In this document: positions 9,425-16,975 of the stretch, piece after piece | Layout: each line of letters starts with the position of its first letter | Numbering within the stretch: the stretch's first letter is position 1 | The notes under the pieces: model-generated | Databases searched by the model: none | The model's input: only the letters and a program-made list of their open reading frames with translations | What the model was told of the DNA's origin: nothing | Position numbers and translations under genes: made by a program | Source: Chloroflexota bacterium | Lineage (GTDB): Bacteria; Chloroflexota; Dehalococcoidia; JACPQK01 | Direction: 5' to 3' | Assembly: GCA_016190505.1 (NCBI GenBank) | Contig: JACPQM010000028.1 | Span: forward strand, 1 to 38,829 | DNA: 38,829 bases

Positions 9425-11638
9425 TTAGCCGTGCCTCCGGGACAGCAAGGTCCCACCCAGGGAGTTTAGCAGCACCGTGGTCACACTGGCGGCCATGGCG
9501 ATCATGGCCCAGACCGGGTGCACCAGGCCCGTCATCGCTGCGGGGATGCCTATGCCGTTGAAGGCAAAGGCGAGGGAAACGTTCTGGACCGTCTTGGCGA
9601 AGCTGCTCTTGCCAATGCTGTAGGCATCCACTACGGCGCCGAGCCGGTCTCCCACCAGGACCACGTCTGCCGACTCGATGGCGATGTCAGTGCCCGCGCC
9701 GATGGCAATGCCCACGTCGGCCTGCATCAGGGCAGGCGCATCGTTGATGCCATCGCCCACCATGGCCACCCGGGACCCCTGCTGCTGGAGGCGGCGGACC
9801 TCGTTGGCCTTGTCCTGGGGCAACACTTCGGCCAGAACTACTTCTATGCCCACCTGGGCGGCCACGGCCTGGGCGGTCCGCCAGTTGTCACCGGTGATCA
9901 TCACAGGTTGCAGGCCAGCGGCCTTTATGCCAGCGACGGCCTCTGCGGCGTCGCCTTTCAAGGTGTCGGAGATGGCGATGAGGCCGGCCACCCGGCCTTC
10001 CTCGGCCACGGCCACCACGGTCCGGCCCTGCTGCTCCAAAAGGTCCAGGCGTTCACGGACGGCGCTCAGGTCTACGCCTTCGGCGGCCAGGAAGCTCGGA
10101 TTGCCCACCAGTACCTCGCGGTCCTCCATAGTCGCCCGTACCCCACGTCCCGGGACAGCCTCGAAGTCCCTGGTGGCGGGCAAACTCAGTCCCTCGGCCC
10201 GCTCCATGATGGCCCTGGCCAACGGGTGCTCCGAGACCGCCTCGGCGGCCGCGGCCAACCCAATCACCTGGTCCGGCGAGTAGTTCCCCGACGCAACGAC
10301 CTCGACTACCGTTGGCTCGCCTTTGGTAATGGTCCCGGTCTTGTCCAGCACCACCTTGCGGACATCCTTGAACACCTGGAAGGCCTCGCCGGAGCGCATG
10401 AGGATGCCTTTCTGGGCCGCCATGCCTCCGCCCCGGATCATAGCCAGGGGCGTGGCCATGCCCAGGGCGCAGGGGTACCCCATAACCAGGACGGCGAGAG
10501 TGGCGAAGATGGCCCGCTCGACGTTGGGCTCCCCGGTCACCAGCCAGGCCCCCAGGGTCCAGATGACAAAGGCTGCCGCGGCTGCCACCAGCACTCCCGG
10601 CACGAACCAGTGGAGGACGTGCTCCACCACTTGCATGATGCCTGGTTTGAGGGCCCGTGCCTCCTGGATGGAGCGAGCGACCTGCTGCAAGAAGCTCTCT
10701 TCCCCTACTTTGGTGACGCGGACAAGGAGCGTGCCTGTCTGGTTCACTGCGCCGCCGATAACCTCGTCGCCGGGACCTTTCTCCACCGGGATGGGCTCAC
10801 CAGTCACCAGGCTCTGGTTCACCCCGGACAGGCCATCCTCCACCACTCCATCCACTGGGATGCCCTCGCCTGGCCGGACCCGCACCAGATCGCCTGGGCG
10901 CACCTCCTCGACAGAGACTTCTTGCTCAACGCCATTCCTGAGTACCCGCGCAGTTTCGGGCTGGAGCGCCATCAGCTTTCTGATGGCCTGGGAGCTCCTG
11001 GTGCGGACCAGCAAGGAAACGTAGCCGGAAAGGACGTGGTACGCGGTGACGAAGACGGCGGCGCCCATGAAGTCGGCCATGGGCCAGGGTTGCTTGAAGA
11101 ACCCGATGAGCCCGCCCGCCAGGCCCCCAAAGGCGGCGAACTCCATGAGTACGTGCTGGTTCAGGATGCCCCGGCCTAGCGACGCCCATGCCATCTTGAG
11201 GATAGGCCACCCCACGCCGAAAATCACGCTCAGGGTGAGGCCCAGCATCGCCCATTTGAACCAGGGCTGCATCTGGCCGAGCCAGACGGCGCTCATGAGG
11301 GCTAGCGAAGTGACGGTAAACCCGGCGGCTACGAAGAGCCGGTTGCGGTGCTCGTGGAGTTCGGCGTCTTCTTCTTCAAAGGAGCGCAGCTTCCTGGGAT
11401 CTCGCACCGCGTAGCCCAGGCTCCGTAGGGTCTCCTGAAGCTGGGCAGCGCTCACTCTGCCCGGGTCATACTGTACCAGCGCTTCCTCATGGGATAGGCT
11501 GACGCCCACGTCCAGGACGCCGTCCATGCGTGAGTAGGCCTTCCGTATGCTATCCACGCAGAAGGAGCACTGCATCCCGCCAATCTTAATCTGGCACTTT
11601 GCCGGCCCCACTTGGCCCCGCTCCGCCACCTCGTGCAT
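9425..11638 (-). CDS. Heavy-metal translocating P1B-type ATPase with YPC motif
   Basis: A 737-residue P1B ATPase. An N-terminal HMA domain carries GMQCSFC (Cys24/Cys27), followed by transmembrane helices, an actuator domain with the VTGEPIPV loop, phosphorylation motif [10 protein letters not shown], an SEHPLA ATP-binding motif and the [10 protein letters not shown] hinge. The intramembrane metal motif is YPCALG (Tyr388-Pro389-Cys390) instead of the CPC of copper pumps, so specificity may differ. The transmembrane segment before it reads [13 protein letters not shown], also unlike standard CopA. It is the last gene of the merR-merA operon, so export of Hg(II), Cu(I) or another soft metal is plausible. 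ATG at 11638 is preferred to an in-frame GTG at 11644 because of SD spacing. Confidence 0.9.
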
Positions 11639-11670
11639 CGCCACTTCCTTCCCCTCAGACTAGAGTCCAG

Positions 11671-11892
11671 TTACGCAGTGCGATATCCGGCAAGCTCCAG
11701 TTTCTGCCTCACCTCGACGGCAGGGGTCCTCTCGATGTCCAGGGTAATAGTGACCTTCTGGGTCTTATGGTCCGCCTTGACCTTGACCACTCCCGGAAGT
11801 CTCTTCGCGATAGTCTCAACGCGGCTTTCGCAGCCGGCGCAGTGCATTGCCCTATCCTGAACCATCAGTTCCACTTGCTCTATCTTGGCCAT
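11671..11892 (-). CDS. Heavy-metal-associated (HMA) domain protein, metallochaperone
   Basis: A 73-residue stand-alone HMA fold. The metal motif is MHCAGC (Cys18/Cys21), with the usual beta-alpha-beta-beta-alpha-beta pattern ending in AGYRTA. No signal peptide, so it is cytosolic. It is like CopZ, or like the detached N-terminal domain that many mercuric reductases carry; the MerA here lacks that domain. It probably hands metal to the adjacent ATPase or to MerA. The start has GAGGAGCG upstream. It sits between the CPICNK membrane protein and the ATPase. Confidence 0.88.
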   Translation of the reverse strand: MAKIEQVELMVQDRAMHCAGCESRVETIAKRLPGVVKVKADHKTQKVTITLDIERTPAVEVRQKLELAGYRTA

Positions 11893-11927: not shown

Positions 11928-12470
11928 CTAACCCTTGGCCCTGGCTTCCACGGGGGCCGGGACGACACAGCAGCTCCGGGTCATGGCCGACAGCCGCAGG
12001 TGCAGGGACCAGAGGAGCAGCGCTATCGAGGCAATCCCGAGATAGAGCTGCACCGGGGCAAAGTAGGTAAGCGCCCCACTGACGCCCAGCACCGACACCA
12101 CAAGCTTGTTGCAGATGGGGCAACCCGTAGCAAAATAGGAAAGCAGGCCTCCTGAAGCGCCCCTACCCTCACCTCCCTTGGCACGGCGCACCGCGAAACT
12201 GCCACCGACCAGCCCCATCAGGAGCGCCGTGGTTGTCCAGATGACATAGTCCTGTATCCGGACCGCAGTCTGCCGGGCAAAGAACGGATTGTCAATCATC
12301 CCCGTTGGTATGCCGACAAGGACAAGAGCAAGTACGGCGGCAATGGCAGCCACAACCCATCCCCGAAGGCCAAAAAGCCCGAGGCCAGCCCGCCATTGCG
12401 TCGCCAGGAAGGACAGCCTGTTCTTCCACCGCGCGGGAACGTAGGTCGCGGCTGTCGTGGCTCCGTTCAT
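11928..12470 (-). CDS. Membrane protein with CPICNK motif, putative metal transport component
   Basis: A 180-residue protein with about four hydrophobic helices. A paired-Cys motif GCPICNKLVVSVLGVSGAL opens the third helix, and a CC pair lies near the C-terminus. I do not recognise a named family, but membrane proteins with two Cys in a helix (MerT, MerF, MerC) carry Hg(II) inward from MerP to MerA. Its place next to merA and a MerP-like gene makes a mercury transporter role likely by context only. The start ATG shares one base with the preceding stop (TGATG), with GGAGGGGG upstream, so it is coupled to translation of the UGA-containing gene. That coupling would require readthrough of the UGA. 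Confidence 0.75.
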   Translation of the reverse strand: MNGATTAATYVPARWKNRLSFLATQWRAGLGLFGLRGWVVAAIAAVLALVLVGIPTGMIDNPFFARQTAVRIQDYVIWTTTALLMGLVGGSFAVRRAKGGEGRGASGGLLSYFATGCPICNKLVVSVLGVSGALTYFAPVQLYLGIASIALLLWSLHLRLSAMTRSCCVVPAPVEARAKG

Positions 12471-12850
12471 CAATCGCCCCCTCCTTGTATCATTTTGGAC
12501 ACCTTGTCACCGCGCATCTCGATAGCCTGGACTATGGCTTCCGGGTCTGCCTGGGAAGGTTCGTAGATGACGGTTACCAGCGTGATCCTTTGCTCGTCGA
12601 ATGTGACTTCTGTCACCCCAAGTACGCTCCTGGCGCTGGCCTCGACCCGAGGCCAACAACCGGTTCAGAACATGGTGGGGACCTCCAGGACAAACTGAGC
12701 GAGACCTGGACCAGCGCCACTGCTGCGGCGGCCCGCCTCGTCACCGGGGGGGGCAGGCCGTCCACAACCCAGTGACACCGCGATGCTCGCCAGTATGAGC
12801 ACCGCAGCGATCATGGCAGTAGGCGCTTGGCGCCGAAAGCTATTCCACAC
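12470..12850 (-). CDS. Predicted selenoprotein: MerP-like HMA lipoprotein with UGA-encoded Sec (UxxC)
   Basis: Read straight through one in-frame UGA (12665-12667, codon 62), this frame gives 126 residues. An N-terminal RR and hydrophobic segment ends in SLGC (export or lipoprotein signal). A full HMA/MerP fold follows, with metal motif M-F-U-T-G-C aligned to the usual M-T-C-x-x-C, then VTEVTFDEQ and a final EMRGDKVSK. The 65 codons after the UGA are open, fit the HMA fold and run exactly to the next gene (TGATG overlap). A SECIS-like hairpin follows the UGA. The role would be periplasmic Hg(II) binding and delivery to the adjacent membrane protein. GTG at 12850 overlaps the merA stop; an internal ATG at 12814 is possible. 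A conventional reading would leave a 61-residue fragment. Pseudogene is the alternative, but it is less likely. Confidence 0.82.
12634..12658 (-). promoter_or_regulatory. Bacterial SECIS-like hairpin
   Basis: Ten nucleotides after the UGA codon the transcript forms a perfect 7-bp stem, GGCCUCG / CGAGGCC, closed by a 3-nt GGU loop (12645-12647). It extends through U-A, U-G, G-C and U-G pairs to 12634/12658. The first loop G lies 17 nt after the UGA, within the distance known for bacterial SECIS elements. The apical loop starts with GGU, as in the E. coli fdhF element recognised by SelB. The stem lies in codons for conserved HMA positions. Confidence 0.75.
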
Positions 12851-14249
12851 AGCAGCTCATCTGTGACACGTCCCGGGTGAAGGCCTGGGCCACGCGCTTG
12901 ATCCCCTCACTCAGCGTTGGAAACACGAAGATCGTATCAATCACGTCGTCCACCGTCAGTCCGAATTTGACGGCCAAGGTAGCGGCGTGGATAAGGTCGG
13001 CCGCATGGGGAGATACGATGTGCACCCCCAGGACCTTGTTGCTCCGGGGGTGGATCACCATCTTGAACAGGCCGCGGTCTTCATTGACCGCCAGGGCCTT
13101 GGGCACGGCGTCCATGGCGATGGTCCGGCAGGCACAGGCACCGAAGCGTCGCATCTCCTCCTCTTCCGTCAGGCCCACCGAGGCCACCTGCGGATTGGTG
13201 AACACGGCGTGCGGGATGTGGTCATAGTTGAGCGTTCGAACGGGGACGGTGAAAGCGTTCTCCGCCGCCAGAGCGCCCTCCTTGGCGGCCACCGTCTCCA
13301 GGGCCATCTTACCGATGCAGTCTCCGGCAGCATAGACGATGGGGTTGGCTGTCCGGTAGAACTGGTCCACCTGGACAAAGCCACGATCGTTCACTATCAC
13401 CCCGGCCTTGTCCAGGCCCAGGTTCTCTGTATTGGCGCGGATGCCGTTGGCCAGAAGCAGCCTGTCGGCCACCAGCTCCCGGTCACCACCCTCTCCTTGA
13501 ACGTTGACCACGGTCTTGCCGGCCCGCAGAGACACCTGGCTGATTGTCACCTCCGTCAAGAACGCGATGCCCTCTTCTTCCAGGCAACGCACTATCTCTT
13601 CTGCTATCTCCGGCTCATGCCTGCGCAAGACTCTGTGACCCTTGGCCACCACCACGGTGACCCGAGTCCCGAAATGAGCGAACATCTGGGCGAACTCCAG
13701 GCCCTCGGGTCCGGCCCCGACTATCGCCAAGGACTCGGGAAGCTCAGTGAGATGCATGGCGGTCACATTGCTCAGCCAGGGCACCTGGTCCATCCCCGGC
13801 ACTGGCAGGGGCCTGGTCGAGGCGCCCGTGGCGATGAGCACCCTTTCCCCCTCGTAGACCTGGCCATTGGCCTCTACCTGGGCTGGCCCGACGAAGCGGG
13901 CCCGCGCTTCCAGGAAGTCCACCCCGTCCAGGCCGTTGAGGACGTTAGCGTAGTTGCTCTGGCGTGCCCGGGTAACCAACTCCTCCTTGTCCCGAATGGC
14001 GCGGCCAAACTCGAAGGCATCCGGACTCACGGGGCCAAGTGCCTGGAAGCGGGGATGCTGGGGGTAGTACAGATCGTCTCCCAGGGCCAGCAAATGCTTG
14101 CTGGGCATGCACCCCACGTTGACGCAGGTGCCCCCGAGGGGCAGACCCGCGTTGATCATCAGGGCCGTCTTGCCCAGGTCAGCAGCCTTGGTGGCCGCGG
14201 CGAAAGCTGCCGCCCCGCCGCCAACGATAATGAGGTCGTACTTTCGCAT
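12840..14249 (-). CDS. merA: Mercuric reductase
   Basis: A 469-residue pyridine nucleotide-disulfide oxidoreductase reducing Hg(II) to Hg(0) with NADPH. FAD-binding [14 protein letters not shown] opens the protein, the redox disulfide [13 protein letters not shown] has Cys42 and Cys47, and an [13 protein letters not shown] motif starts the NAD(P) domain. The C-terminal Cys pair (Cys466, Cys467) of true MerA is present as MSCCVE. The N-terminal HMA domain found in many MerA proteins is absent and may be replaced by the free HMA protein downstream. The start at 14249 has TAGGAGGGC upstream; the frame is open to 14444 without homology. It follows merR by 10 bp and overlaps the MerP-like gene. 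Confidence 0.93.
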
Positions 14250-14259
14250 CGTTGCCCTC

Positions 14260-14739
14260 CTACTCGGACTTCGGACCATACTTGCCGTGGGTCTTGGCGC
14301 CGCCGCGCACCCAGGCCAGCACCCCGGCGCCAATGCCGGGACCGCTGGCCTCGATGATACCGCAGATACGCCCCCCGGTTGGTCCGCAGTCCGCAAGGTC
14401 TCCCGCCCGGTCCCGAAGCCGGCATAGCTCCTCGCGGAACTCACGGAGATCCTGGAGAAGGGCGTCTACCTGCCCCAGTTTTGTCTCCAGCAGCACGCGT
14501 ACATGCGTGCAGGTTGGCTCTCTCCTGTCGTGGAGGCGCAGGATACTCTTGATCTCTTCCAGAGACAGGCCGAGGCGTTTAGCCTTGCGGATGAACTCCA
14601 GGCGCTCTACGTCGGCCCGGTCGTAGACCCGGTACCCGGAGTCGGTGCGGCCGGGGTCCGGTAGCAGACTCTCCCCTTCGTAGTACCTGATGGTCTTGGG
14701 CGTGAACCCGGTCGCCCGGGCTAGCTCCCCGATCTTCAA
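14260..14739 (-). CDS. MerR-family metal-responsive regulator
   Basis: A 159-residue MerR protein. The N-terminal winged helix reads [20 protein letters not shown], a dimerisation helix follows, and candidate metal ligands are Cys77, Cys118 and Cys126 (also His79, Cys106). In MerR and ZntR three Cys from these regions bind Hg(II) or Zn(II). TTG at 14739 is preferred: it has GGAGGGGAG upstream and gives the family-standard N-terminus, whereas the frame continues open to 14955 with no homology and across a promoter. It heads the operon with merA, so mercury is the likeliest inducer, with repression and activation through the 20-bp-spacer promoter just upstream. Confidence 0.88.
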
Positions 14740-14772
14740 CTTGTGCTCCCCTCCGTGTGGCACTTTGATAGA

Positions 14773-14960: not shown

Positions 14961-15482
14961 TCAGTTTGGCTCTCCTAAGAGGGACTGGATCTCTTCCTTC
15001 AGCCTCTCATAGGATGTGGAAACCTCGTCCCGGTAGGCGATCCGGCCTTGTTGGTCTACTATAATGGTGGAATCCAGTGCCTTTATCTCATAGGCCAAGG
15101 CCCAGCGGTTTCCTTCGTCCAGGGCCCAGTAATGCTCCCCACCCTGGACGAAATCCTTGAACTGGCGGAGGTGCTGTCCCGTTTCACGGGTATCCACGTC
15201 CAGGACAAGCACCTCCACCCCTCTACCTCGATATTCCCGAAAGATGCGGGCCAGGGCCTTGGCCTCAGGGATACAGCTAGGACACCATGCCGCCATAGCG
15301 TACATGATGACCACCTTGCCCCTATACTCAGACAGAGTAAAGTCTGAACCGTCCAGGGTCGTCACCGTGAAGTCCGGGGCGGGTTGGCCTTCGGGGGAAC
15401 AACTGGCCATCAACAGGATCACCCCGAGCACTATGGCCCGCCACTTGCCTCTCAGGGGAGTCTTGACTCTTATCTCTTGCAT
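14961..15482 (-). CDS. TlpA/ResA-like thiol-disulfide oxidoreductase lipoprotein
   Basis: A 173-residue thioredoxin-fold protein. The signal peptide ends in a lipobox, LMASC (Cys28). It continues with PDFTVTTLDGSDFTLSEYRGK of the AhpC/TSA-Redoxin class and an active site WCPSC (Cys67/Cys70). It should act on the outer face of the membrane, reducing disulfides or keeping metal-binding thiols reduced. It follows the HMA and CPC membrane genes on the same strand. The merR promoter lies 200 bp downstream, within the region that separates it from the mer operon proper. Confidence 0.85.
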   Translation of the reverse strand: MQEIRVKTPLRGKWRAIVLGVILLMASCSPEGQPAPDFTVTTLDGSDFTLSEYRGKVVIMYAMAAWCPSCIPEAKALARIFREYRGRGVEVLVLDVDTRETGQHLRQFKDFVQGGEHYWALDEGNRWALAYEIKALDSTIIVDQQGRIAYRDEVSTSYERLKEEIQSLLGEPN

Positions 15483-15521: not shown

Positions 15522-15776
15522 CTAGCGCTTCGCGTTCCCGTAACTGCGCTTCCGACGAGGCTCCTCTTTGCTCAGCAACAGGAACCCCAAGAGCAGGGCA
15601 CCTAGAAAGTACAGCCCGCCCAAAGCGTAGACCCACCCTATGTGGCCGGCCAGGAAGGCCCCGGCGGTGGAGCCACCCAACAGCCCAGCCGCCAGGGGCA
15701 AGGTGATGGGGAAGTGACAGGGGCAGGCTATGAAGCCCGTTACCCCAAGAAACCAGCCACCAAGGTTGATAGCCAC
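15522..15776 (-). CDS. Small membrane protein with CPCH motif, MerE-like mercury transporter candidate
   Basis: An 84-residue protein with two hydrophobic helices. Motif ACPCHFPITLPLAAGLLGG sits in the first helix, closely resembling the ACPCHLP motif of MerE-type broad mercury transporters. A basic tail, PRRKRSYGNAKR, is likely cytoplasmic. The start is GTG at 15776 with AGGCGG upstream, 7 bp after the HMA gene. Function in mercury (including methylmercury) uptake is inferred from the motif and the neighbours. Confidence 0.7.
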   Translation of the reverse strand: MAINLGGWFLGVTGFIACPCHFPITLPLAAGLLGGSTAGAFLAGHIGWVYALGGLYFLGALLLGFLLLSKEEPRRKRSYGNAKR

Positions 15777-15783
15777 AAGCCGC

Positions 15784-16008
15784 CTAGTCCGCCGGGCTGG
15801 CCGAGTAATGCGCTCCGAAAACCCTGTTGCCCAGGATGTCCTCCTCGCTGGTCACCTCCGGGTCAATGACCACTACCCCGCTGCCTGCGTTCCAATCTAT
15901 GGAGACCCGGGCTACGCCACCCTCCTTCTTCAGCAAGCGGGAGATGGTATCGGCGCATCCCTGGCAGGTCATACCTGTGATGTTTAGCCTTACGGTCTTC
16001 TCAGCCAC
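15784..16008 (-). CDS. HMA-domain metal-binding protein
   Basis: A 74-residue protein with metal motif GMTCQGC (Cys15/Cys18) and an HMA-type fold ending in NRVFGAHYS. No signal peptide is seen from the chosen start. GTG at 16008 was taken because AAGGAGG lies just upstream; the frame is open to 16059 but without a site. It is probably a cytosolic chaperone or MerP-like partner of the CPCH membrane protein encoded 7 bp downstream. Confidence 0.82.
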   Translation of the reverse strand: MAEKTVRLNITGMTCQGCADTISRLLKKEGGVARVSIDWNAGSGVVVIDPEVTSEEDILGNRVFGAHYSASPAD

Positions 16009-16056
16009 GTTTTCCTCCTTGTCTACTCGATGCAGCGGCTCATGTTTGTGACGTCT

Positions 16057-16076
16057 CACTTGCAGGCCTGCAAGTG
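16057..16076. terminator. Perfect 20-nt palindrome between the Met-rich and HMA genes
   Basis: CACTTGCAGG is followed directly by its reverse complement, giving a 10-bp perfect palindrome. It lies between the Met-rich gene stop (16088) and the HMA start (16008). No T-run follows, so it could be a weak terminator, a processing site or an operator. Confidence 0.4.
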
Positions 16077-16087
16077 CCCTCCGCCTA

Positions 16088-16975
16088 TCACTTCCAGAAC
16101 TCCCACCAGCGCGCCCTGCGCGGAGCCTCGCGGCGGCCCCCGCCAGCGCCCACCGGCTCGCGCATCCCGGCCATGGCGGGCATGGGCATCATCTTCATGG
16201 CCTCTTCCATGACCTGCCGCTGGTACGGCGGGAGTTCGGGGATGATAGACTGGACCAGTTGCATCTCCGCCATCGTCTGTTGCGGGTAGGTCGTCCTCAT
16301 AATGTCCATGTGGGTCATCATCAGGGTCTTACGCTGGACCTCGGGTAGCTCCGTCAGCAGCTCTGTGCGGGTCTTGATGAGCTTGCGCTGGCTAGCCTCG
16401 TCCACCTTGAGTACGGCGCTGATCATCATGCCCATGGCCTTCCGGCGCTCGCCTTCGGGCATCTCGACGAACATCTTCAGCCGCTCCGACATCATGGTCT
16501 TGCGCTGGGTCTCCGGCATCTGGGCCAGGGCCTTCACCATGTCGTCCATGCCCATGGCCGGCGCCGCAGCAGGTCTCACCTCAGCCGGGGTGGGCATGGG
16601 CATCATCTTCATCATCTCCATGACCTGCCGCTGGTGTTCGGGCCTGAGCTCAGGAGTGATGGCCTGGATCGTCTTCATCTCCATCATCGCCTTTTCTGGC
16701 GGCATCTTCTGGAGCAGGCCCATATGGGTCTGCATCAGAGACATGCGGGTCTTGTCTGGGAGCTCGCACAGAAGCTCTGTGCGCGTCTTGACCATCTTCC
16801 GGGCCTCGGCCTCGGGCAGGGTCCCCACTGCCTCCATCATCTCCTGCATCGCTTTGGCCCGGTCCGCGTCCGGCATCTCGGCGAACATCTTCAGCCGCTC
16901 GGACATCATGGTCCTGCGCTGCCCCTCCGGCATGCCCGCCAGGGCTTTCACCATGTCCTTCATGTCCATTGCCAT
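16088..16975 (-). CDS. Met-rich tandem-repeat protein (MPxxxR..MM repeats)
   Basis: A 295-residue soluble protein without signal peptide or membrane helix. It is built of about 25-residue units of the form M/L-P-E-x-x-R-x-x-M-M with hydrophobic positions between, expected to be short amphipathic helices. Residues about 5-128 and 145-270 are a whole-block duplication, each ending MEMMKMMPMP or MEEAMKMMPMP. More than 15 percent of residues are Met. The tail is basic (RREAPRRARWWEFWK). I know no named family. The same unit occurs in the two membrane proteins encoded at 18.3-19.4 and 19.6-21.2 kb. Met-rich proteins often bind Cu(I) or Ag(I); a metal-binding or sensing role is inferred. The start has AGGAGGT, and a CRP/FNR-like operator lies 50 bp upstream. 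Confidence 0.8.
   Translation of the reverse strand: MAMDMKDMVKALAGMPEGQRRTMMSERLKMFAEMPDADRAKAMQEMMEAVGTLPEAEARKMVKTRTELLCELPDKTRMSLMQTHMGLLQKMPPEKAMMEMKTIQAITPELRPEHQRQVMEMMKMMPMPTPAEVRPAAAPAMGMDDMVKALAQMPETQRKTMMSERLKMFVEMPEGERRKAMGMMISAVLKVDEASQRKLIKTRTELLTELPEVQRKTLMMTHMDIMRTTYPQQTMAEMQLVQSIIPELPPYQRQVMEEAMKMMPMPAMAGMREPVGAGGGRREAPRRARWWEFWK

Follow-up and report, generated by a model that had tools for sequence, protein, structure and literature searches.

The window, by which is meant the whole stretch of DNA analysed here (38,829 nucleotides from one contig of a draft Chloroflexota genome), holds a mercury locus whose features are collected in Table 1. Among them is a short gene, referred to below as the Sec-HMA gene, with a frame of 126 codons plus a TGA stop in which the sole internal stop is the UGA at codon 62. 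The GTG start overlaps the 3' end of merA by 11 nt, and the stop codon shares bases with the start of the next gene (GGCGATTGATGA). A single UGA in an otherwise intact frame, a frame ending at the start of the next gene, and a mercury reductase as neighbour had all been claimed in the original prediction, and each of these points stood up to renewed analysis, with the gene lying on the minus strand and the MerA match over its cut-off. The membrane protein encoded next to the Sec-HMA gene has no Pfam or NCBIfam family match and no MerT match. At 16088-16975 the window also encodes a Met-rich protein of 295 residues that matches DUF3106 and has two halves resembling each other.

Table 1. Features of the mercury locus, with positions in the window.
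Feature	Position	Strand	Details
Sec-HMA gene	12470..12850	-	GTG start 12850-12848; TGA stop 12472-12470; 126 codons; UGA at codon 62
In-frame UGA, likely Sec62	12665..12667	-	First-Cys position of HMA CxxC
Cys65 codon, second ligand of UxxC site	12656..12658	-	From sequence
Cys29 codon, lipobox-like	12764..12766	-	From alignment; lipidation predicted by eye
HMA domain, residues 54-111	12518..12691	-	Pfam match, AlphaFold2 model, fold match
Predicted bSECIS hairpin	12634..12658	-	11 bp; apical loop GGU 12647-12645; 17 nt after UGA; -17.6 kcal/mol
merA, mercury(II) reductase without N-terminal HMA	12840..14249	-	TIGR02053 520.3 bits (cut-off 454.45); C-terminal SCCVE
Membrane protein, CPICNK and CC motifs	11928..12473	-	Homologues at equivalent position in L021 and G439; candidate Hg acceptor
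MerR-family regulator, TTG start	14260..14745	-	MerR 90.4 bits, below cut-off 150.85
TlpA/ResA-like thioredoxin-fold protein	14961..15482	-	Possible reductant of UxxC site
Second HMA protein, Cys-type (CAGC)	11671..11892	-	
Heavy-metal P-type ATPase, N-terminal Cys-type HMA (CSFC)	9425..11644	-	
MerE-like small membrane protein	15522..15776	-	PF05052 25.0 bits (cut-off 22.8); NCBIfam 25.6, below cut-off 80
Third HMA protein, Cys-type (CQGC)	15784..16059	-	

When the UGA is read through, the product consists of a signal-peptide-like N-terminus with Cys29, then a linker, then an HMA domain; the sequence around the UGA is LEVPTMF-U-TGCWPRVEASARSV, and the metal site reads M-F-U-T-G-C. The Pfam HMA model (PF00403) matches residues 54-111 of the read-through protein at 30.4 bits, over its gathering cut-off of 24.8, and the U takes the place of the first Cys in the CxxC of HMA domains. 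The earlier assignment of an HMA fold is likewise upheld by an AlphaFold2 model made from 15 aligned sequences, in which block-mean pLDDT is 89 to 97 for residues 51-120 and 47 to 58 for residues 1-50. The best PDB matches of this model are HMA domains, chiefly of copper proteins, and the MerP structure 1osd is sixth among them (TM 0.86 by target length).

Relatives were sought in genome contigs, in 400 genomes of the same phylum, in 393 of the same class, in 396 of the phylum of one distant relative (L021, below), and in the protein database. Each genome sample was a subset of a larger group, and scoring was limited to at most 10 or 11 candidates per genome, so that all counts are lower bounds. 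The contig scan yielded two relatives, L020 from a Dehalococcoidia MAG and L021 from an Acidobacteria MAG, both with UGA at the same column as the window gene. Among the 400 phylum genomes, 15 gave hits at or below E 1e-8, 16 in all; four carry UGA at the column (G137, G121, G123, and G329, the last as UxxU) and G270 carries Cys. The remaining ten matches outside the window's own genome have CxxC sites, which in nine cases belong to the GMTC or GMSC type. The class sample, in which 15 hits at or below E 1e-10 came from 13 genomes, added G433 and G408 with UGA and G439 with Cys, and nine further matches there, all without internal stops, are left out of the locus counts. Two entries were set aside as UGA loci, namely G439, marked '1 TGA' in the search table, where the TGA is the stop codon and the site is Cys, and G139, marked '2 TGA', where the site is CxxC. 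A single-sequence search of the protein database with the read-through protein left none of 65 candidates at or below E 0.001; a three-row profile found 13 homologues, and all 13 have Cys at the UGA column. Because database entries are ordinary gene calls, full-length UGA forms could not appear there, and what these homologues establish is limited to the sense residue, which in every case is Cys. In total, the column is occupied by UGA in nine loci (the window and eight others) and by Cys in fifteen sequences (the 13 database proteins plus the genomic loci G270 and G439), Cys being the residue that the original prediction had looked for in relatives.

The two forms lie close together. Of 72 residues compared along the domain, the Cys protein P0004 and the Sec protein of L020 share 65, and five of the seven differences fall between 5 residues before and 7 after the U. 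G439 has the gene order of the window (MerR, MerA, HMA, and the CPICN protein, with a further HMA protein and the ATPase beyond) together with Cys at the site; no intact signal peptide could be read in frame at this locus. A tree of 25 short rows, from which P0015 was omitted and which leaves 15 of its 22 inner branches open, needs four changes between Sec and Cys labels, at least two of them forced by well-supported branches. The L021 locus and the window show synteny (ArsR, Sec-HMA, MerA, CPICN protein, ATPase). Among the 396 genomes of its phylum the only match was in its own genome (1/396), and since the protein occurs in no other of them, L021 represents either a transfer between phyla or a binning error. 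Separately, the site of G329 (L041 around 2485, minus strand) contains two UGA codons, U-P-G-U, and is probably a double selenolate.

The original prediction tied the reading of UGA as Sec to the presence of selA, selB, selC (tRNA-Sec) and selD in the genome, and all four are found there: tRNA-Sec at 66.4 bits, also called tRNA-SeC by ARAGORN; selA at 559.6 bits; selB at 344.3 bits summed in its frame; and selD at 376.9 bits, the last three each over the respective cut-off. This selD (L018, contig C61) itself carries an in-frame TGA at the active site, followed by a hairpin of -15.5 kcal/mol that satisfies the bSECIS rules, and SelD is therefore a probable selenoprotein as well. At least one of tRNA-Sec, selA, and selB is present in every one of the eight other genomes with a Sec locus. 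ARAGORN confirmed tRNA-Sec in seven of the eight (the exception is G121), selA was over cut-off in five of six searched (not in G329; G433 and G408 were outside this search), and selB in three of four searched, again not in G329, a genome that is 77% complete. In G439, which has the Cys form, the best selB match reaches 193.7 bits, below the cut-off of 242.25, and the best tRNA-Sec match is a tRNA-Ser. In G270 (L038), tRNA-Sec and selB pass their cut-offs but selA gave no match, and the site is Cys; perhaps this genome is losing Sec, or perhaps there is a gap in its assembly.

A hairpin that would serve as a bSECIS element follows the UGA. Under rules taken from the SECIS section of a review (PMC13188914), five of the nine Sec loci qualify (the window, L020, L021, G433, and G123), each with a GGU loop and each 17 nt after the UGA; no hairpin conforming to the rules was found at the other four (G408, G137, G121, and G329), and none of five Cys sites passes. 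In G123 two stem pairs are altered on both sides with the loop retained. Across the five sequences 96.4% of stem cells pair, as against 25.5 to 47.3% when the stem is slid, and 24 of 500 shuffles do as well as the real alignment. Of 5000 synonymous recodings of the window, 95 match the observed sequence in stability and 1603 reach the threshold of -7.5 kcal/mol; with the full 11-bp stem scored, the corresponding counts are 455 and 1236 for L020, and 202 and 760 for L021. Dinucleotide-shuffle z values are -2.09 for the window, -3.51 for L020, and -0.35 for L021, whose fold is thus no better than its shuffles. Since so many recodings reach the threshold and 95 match the observed stability, the hairpin taken on its own is weak support, and in-frame statistical support for it is moderate. 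Taken as a whole, the hairpin provides good support for Sec decoding, though not proof. At gathering cut-offs, Rfam has no match within the window.

Several known systems invite comparison. The window protein resembles MerP (TIGR02052; 1osd, 1afi) in its HMA fold, in the position of its metal site, and in its merA neighbour, but differs in having Sec for the first Cys and a lipobox-like Cys, and it reaches 26.1 bits against the MerP equivalog cut-off of 92.55. NF041115, the UxxU metal-binding (seleno)protein, is likewise HMA-type with Sec at the metal site; however, the window protein has UxxC rather than UxxU (G329 being the exception in the family), has 126 residues against the 74 positions of that model, and scores 20.0 bits against a cut-off of 95. 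A search for an NF041115 member elsewhere in the window's own genome gave five matches, none over cut-off. NF045683, the MerT/CopZ fusion-like heavy metal transport selenoprotein, shares Sec, an HMA-like part, and kinship with mercury transport, but is a membrane fusion of 235 positions to which L020 scores 16.8 bits against 375 and the window protein has no match at E up to 1. In a 2008 ocean survey (PMC2398784), a table row 'Mercuric transport protein MerP' stands among the selenoproteins with the numbers 2, 1, and 0; the resemblance, a MerP with Sec, extends as far as this row, which gives no motif. Passages of PMC9312934, PMC13188914, and PMC7435645 list among them a Sec MerT, a UxxC cation ATPase, MerB, and the UxxU family NF041115. 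HMA and mercury proteins with Sec have thus been catalogued before, and the window protein falls far below the cut-offs of both NF041115 and NF045683. Among the matches listed for the open-licence literature, as excerpted there, no paper was recognised as describing this HMA selenoprotein family.

Taken together, the sequence comparisons give strong support to the UGA being read as Sec, and we consider it probable, at roughly 0.7, that 12850-12470 encodes a selenoprotein with Sec62, likely a lipid-anchored, MerP-like HMA protein in which Sec62 and Cys65 would serve as ligands for Hg(II) outside the cell. In this mechanism, the hairpin is predicted to recruit SelB with its Sec-tRNA, and Cys29, predicted by eye to be lipidated, would place the HMA domain on the outer face of the membrane. 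Cys29 is kept in 14 of 15 aligned proteins, the remaining protein being without an N-terminus. By eye, a lipobox-like Cys is present in the window, L020, L021, G433, G408, and G137 and was not seen in G329 or G123; the G121 locus is cut by the contig end. Further, genes for LGT (prolipoprotein diacylglyceryl transferase) lie inside the mer loci of G433 and G408 (L065 1605-2375 and L067 3590-4378), which fits a lipid anchor, since lipoproteins receive their lipid from LGT. Hg(II) has a higher affinity for selenolate than for thiolate. The selenolate-thiolate pair of Sec62 and Cys65 would take Hg(II), as fold, site, and merA together suggest, and hand it to a Cys-bearing membrane protein, after which MerA would reduce it to Hg(0) in the cytoplasm. 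The membrane partner is of the CPICNK type in the window, L021, and G439, and is replaced by a MerT-like protein (below the Pfam cut-off) at four of the 11 loci with DNA (L020, G433, G408, and G270). A relay from the Sec-HMA protein to MerA, with the CPICNK membrane protein in between, is plausible. The TlpA-like protein, plus a DsbD-type protein at some loci, may keep the UxxC site reduced, as the neighbourhood suggests: in G137 and G329 the HMA gene adjoins a DsbD-type membrane gene, with a TlpA-like gene also present in G137, neighbours that fit a reductant acting outside the cell.

The same neighbours also suit a different role, in which the protein is a true selenoprotein whose UxxC site handles copper or performs thiol/selenol redox chemistry instead of capturing Hg(II). 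Many HMA relatives carry Cu(I), most of the matched solved structures are copper proteins, and the window itself encodes two other HMA proteins besides a heavy-metal ATPase. Moreover, G123 and G329 are without a full merA neighbour, the flavoprotein beside the former fitting dihydrolipoyl dehydrogenase better than MerA and the MerA-like piece in the latter having only 76 residues. Against this, merA lies within 1.5 kb at seven of the nine Sec loci and at both Cys loci with DNA. The MerA model is passed by the window, G433, G408, G121, G270, and G439, merA homologues occur in L020 (69% identity) and L021 (64%), and that of G137 is partial, at a contig end. MerP, too, ranks near the top in both the profile and the fold comparisons. 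A copper or redox function is accordingly unlikely, and the mercury specificity of the preferred reading is suggested by the gene neighbourhood.

A second alternative takes the UGA as a real stop, with the gene either a pseudogene or a source of two short proteins. The protein database does hold pieces of 44-51 residues that follow the UGA for the window, L020, and L021, that of the window being a 48-residue entry (P0018). However, the UGA occupies one column in nine loci, both flanks are conserved as protein, and Cys stands there elsewhere; a decaying gene would not keep a column-fixed UGA and flanking conservation, which disfavours the pseudogene. Between the window and L020, dN after the UGA is 0.23 and dS 1.27; omitting the first 13 codons changes these to 0.31 and 1.61. 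Over six pairs dN is below dS in every computable comparison (8/12), dS being not computable in four of the six once the hairpin codons are skipped. By these substitution rates the codons after the UGA evolve as protein, and together with the recurrence of UGA at this column in eight other loci this goes beyond chance; downstream of the UGA, where the original prediction had named unrelated residues or frameshifts as contrary signs, the frame is conserved. Translation that ends at the UGA is therefore highly improbable. A sequencing error or a genome-wide reassignment of UGA has practically no chance: although a Cys codon is a single substitution away from TGA and the genome is a draft, represented here by one contig, independent assemblies show the UGA again, relatives have Cys there and not Trp or Gly, and TGA terminates the Sec-HMA, TlpA, and DUF3106 genes, so that UGA is not reassigned everywhere and its use for Trp or Gly was set aside.

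If the selenoprotein reading with Hg(II) capture is true, nature employs selenium to bind mercury, as a ligand within a protein dedicated to detoxification. More broadly, the odds seem about even that Chloroflexota mer loci house a family of lipid-anchored mercury-capture selenoproteins in which Sec is a metal ligand and not a redox catalyst, and in which Sec and Cys have been swapped several times; within such a family G329 would use a double selenolate, UxxU. Each Sec/Cys pair would be a natural test of the benefit of selenium in Hg(II) capture, and with near-identical Sec and Cys versions on the one hand and a Sec-free sister genome of the same gene order (G439) on the other, the advantage of selenium over sulphur becomes measurable. 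Routine annotation breaks the Sec-HMA gene, and the window gene and its relatives are recorded as the short fragments described above. Three other short database fragments of the same family, P0016, P0019, and P0020, lie outside all loci at hand and begin right after the hairpin region, and these may mark further Sec loci as yet unread.
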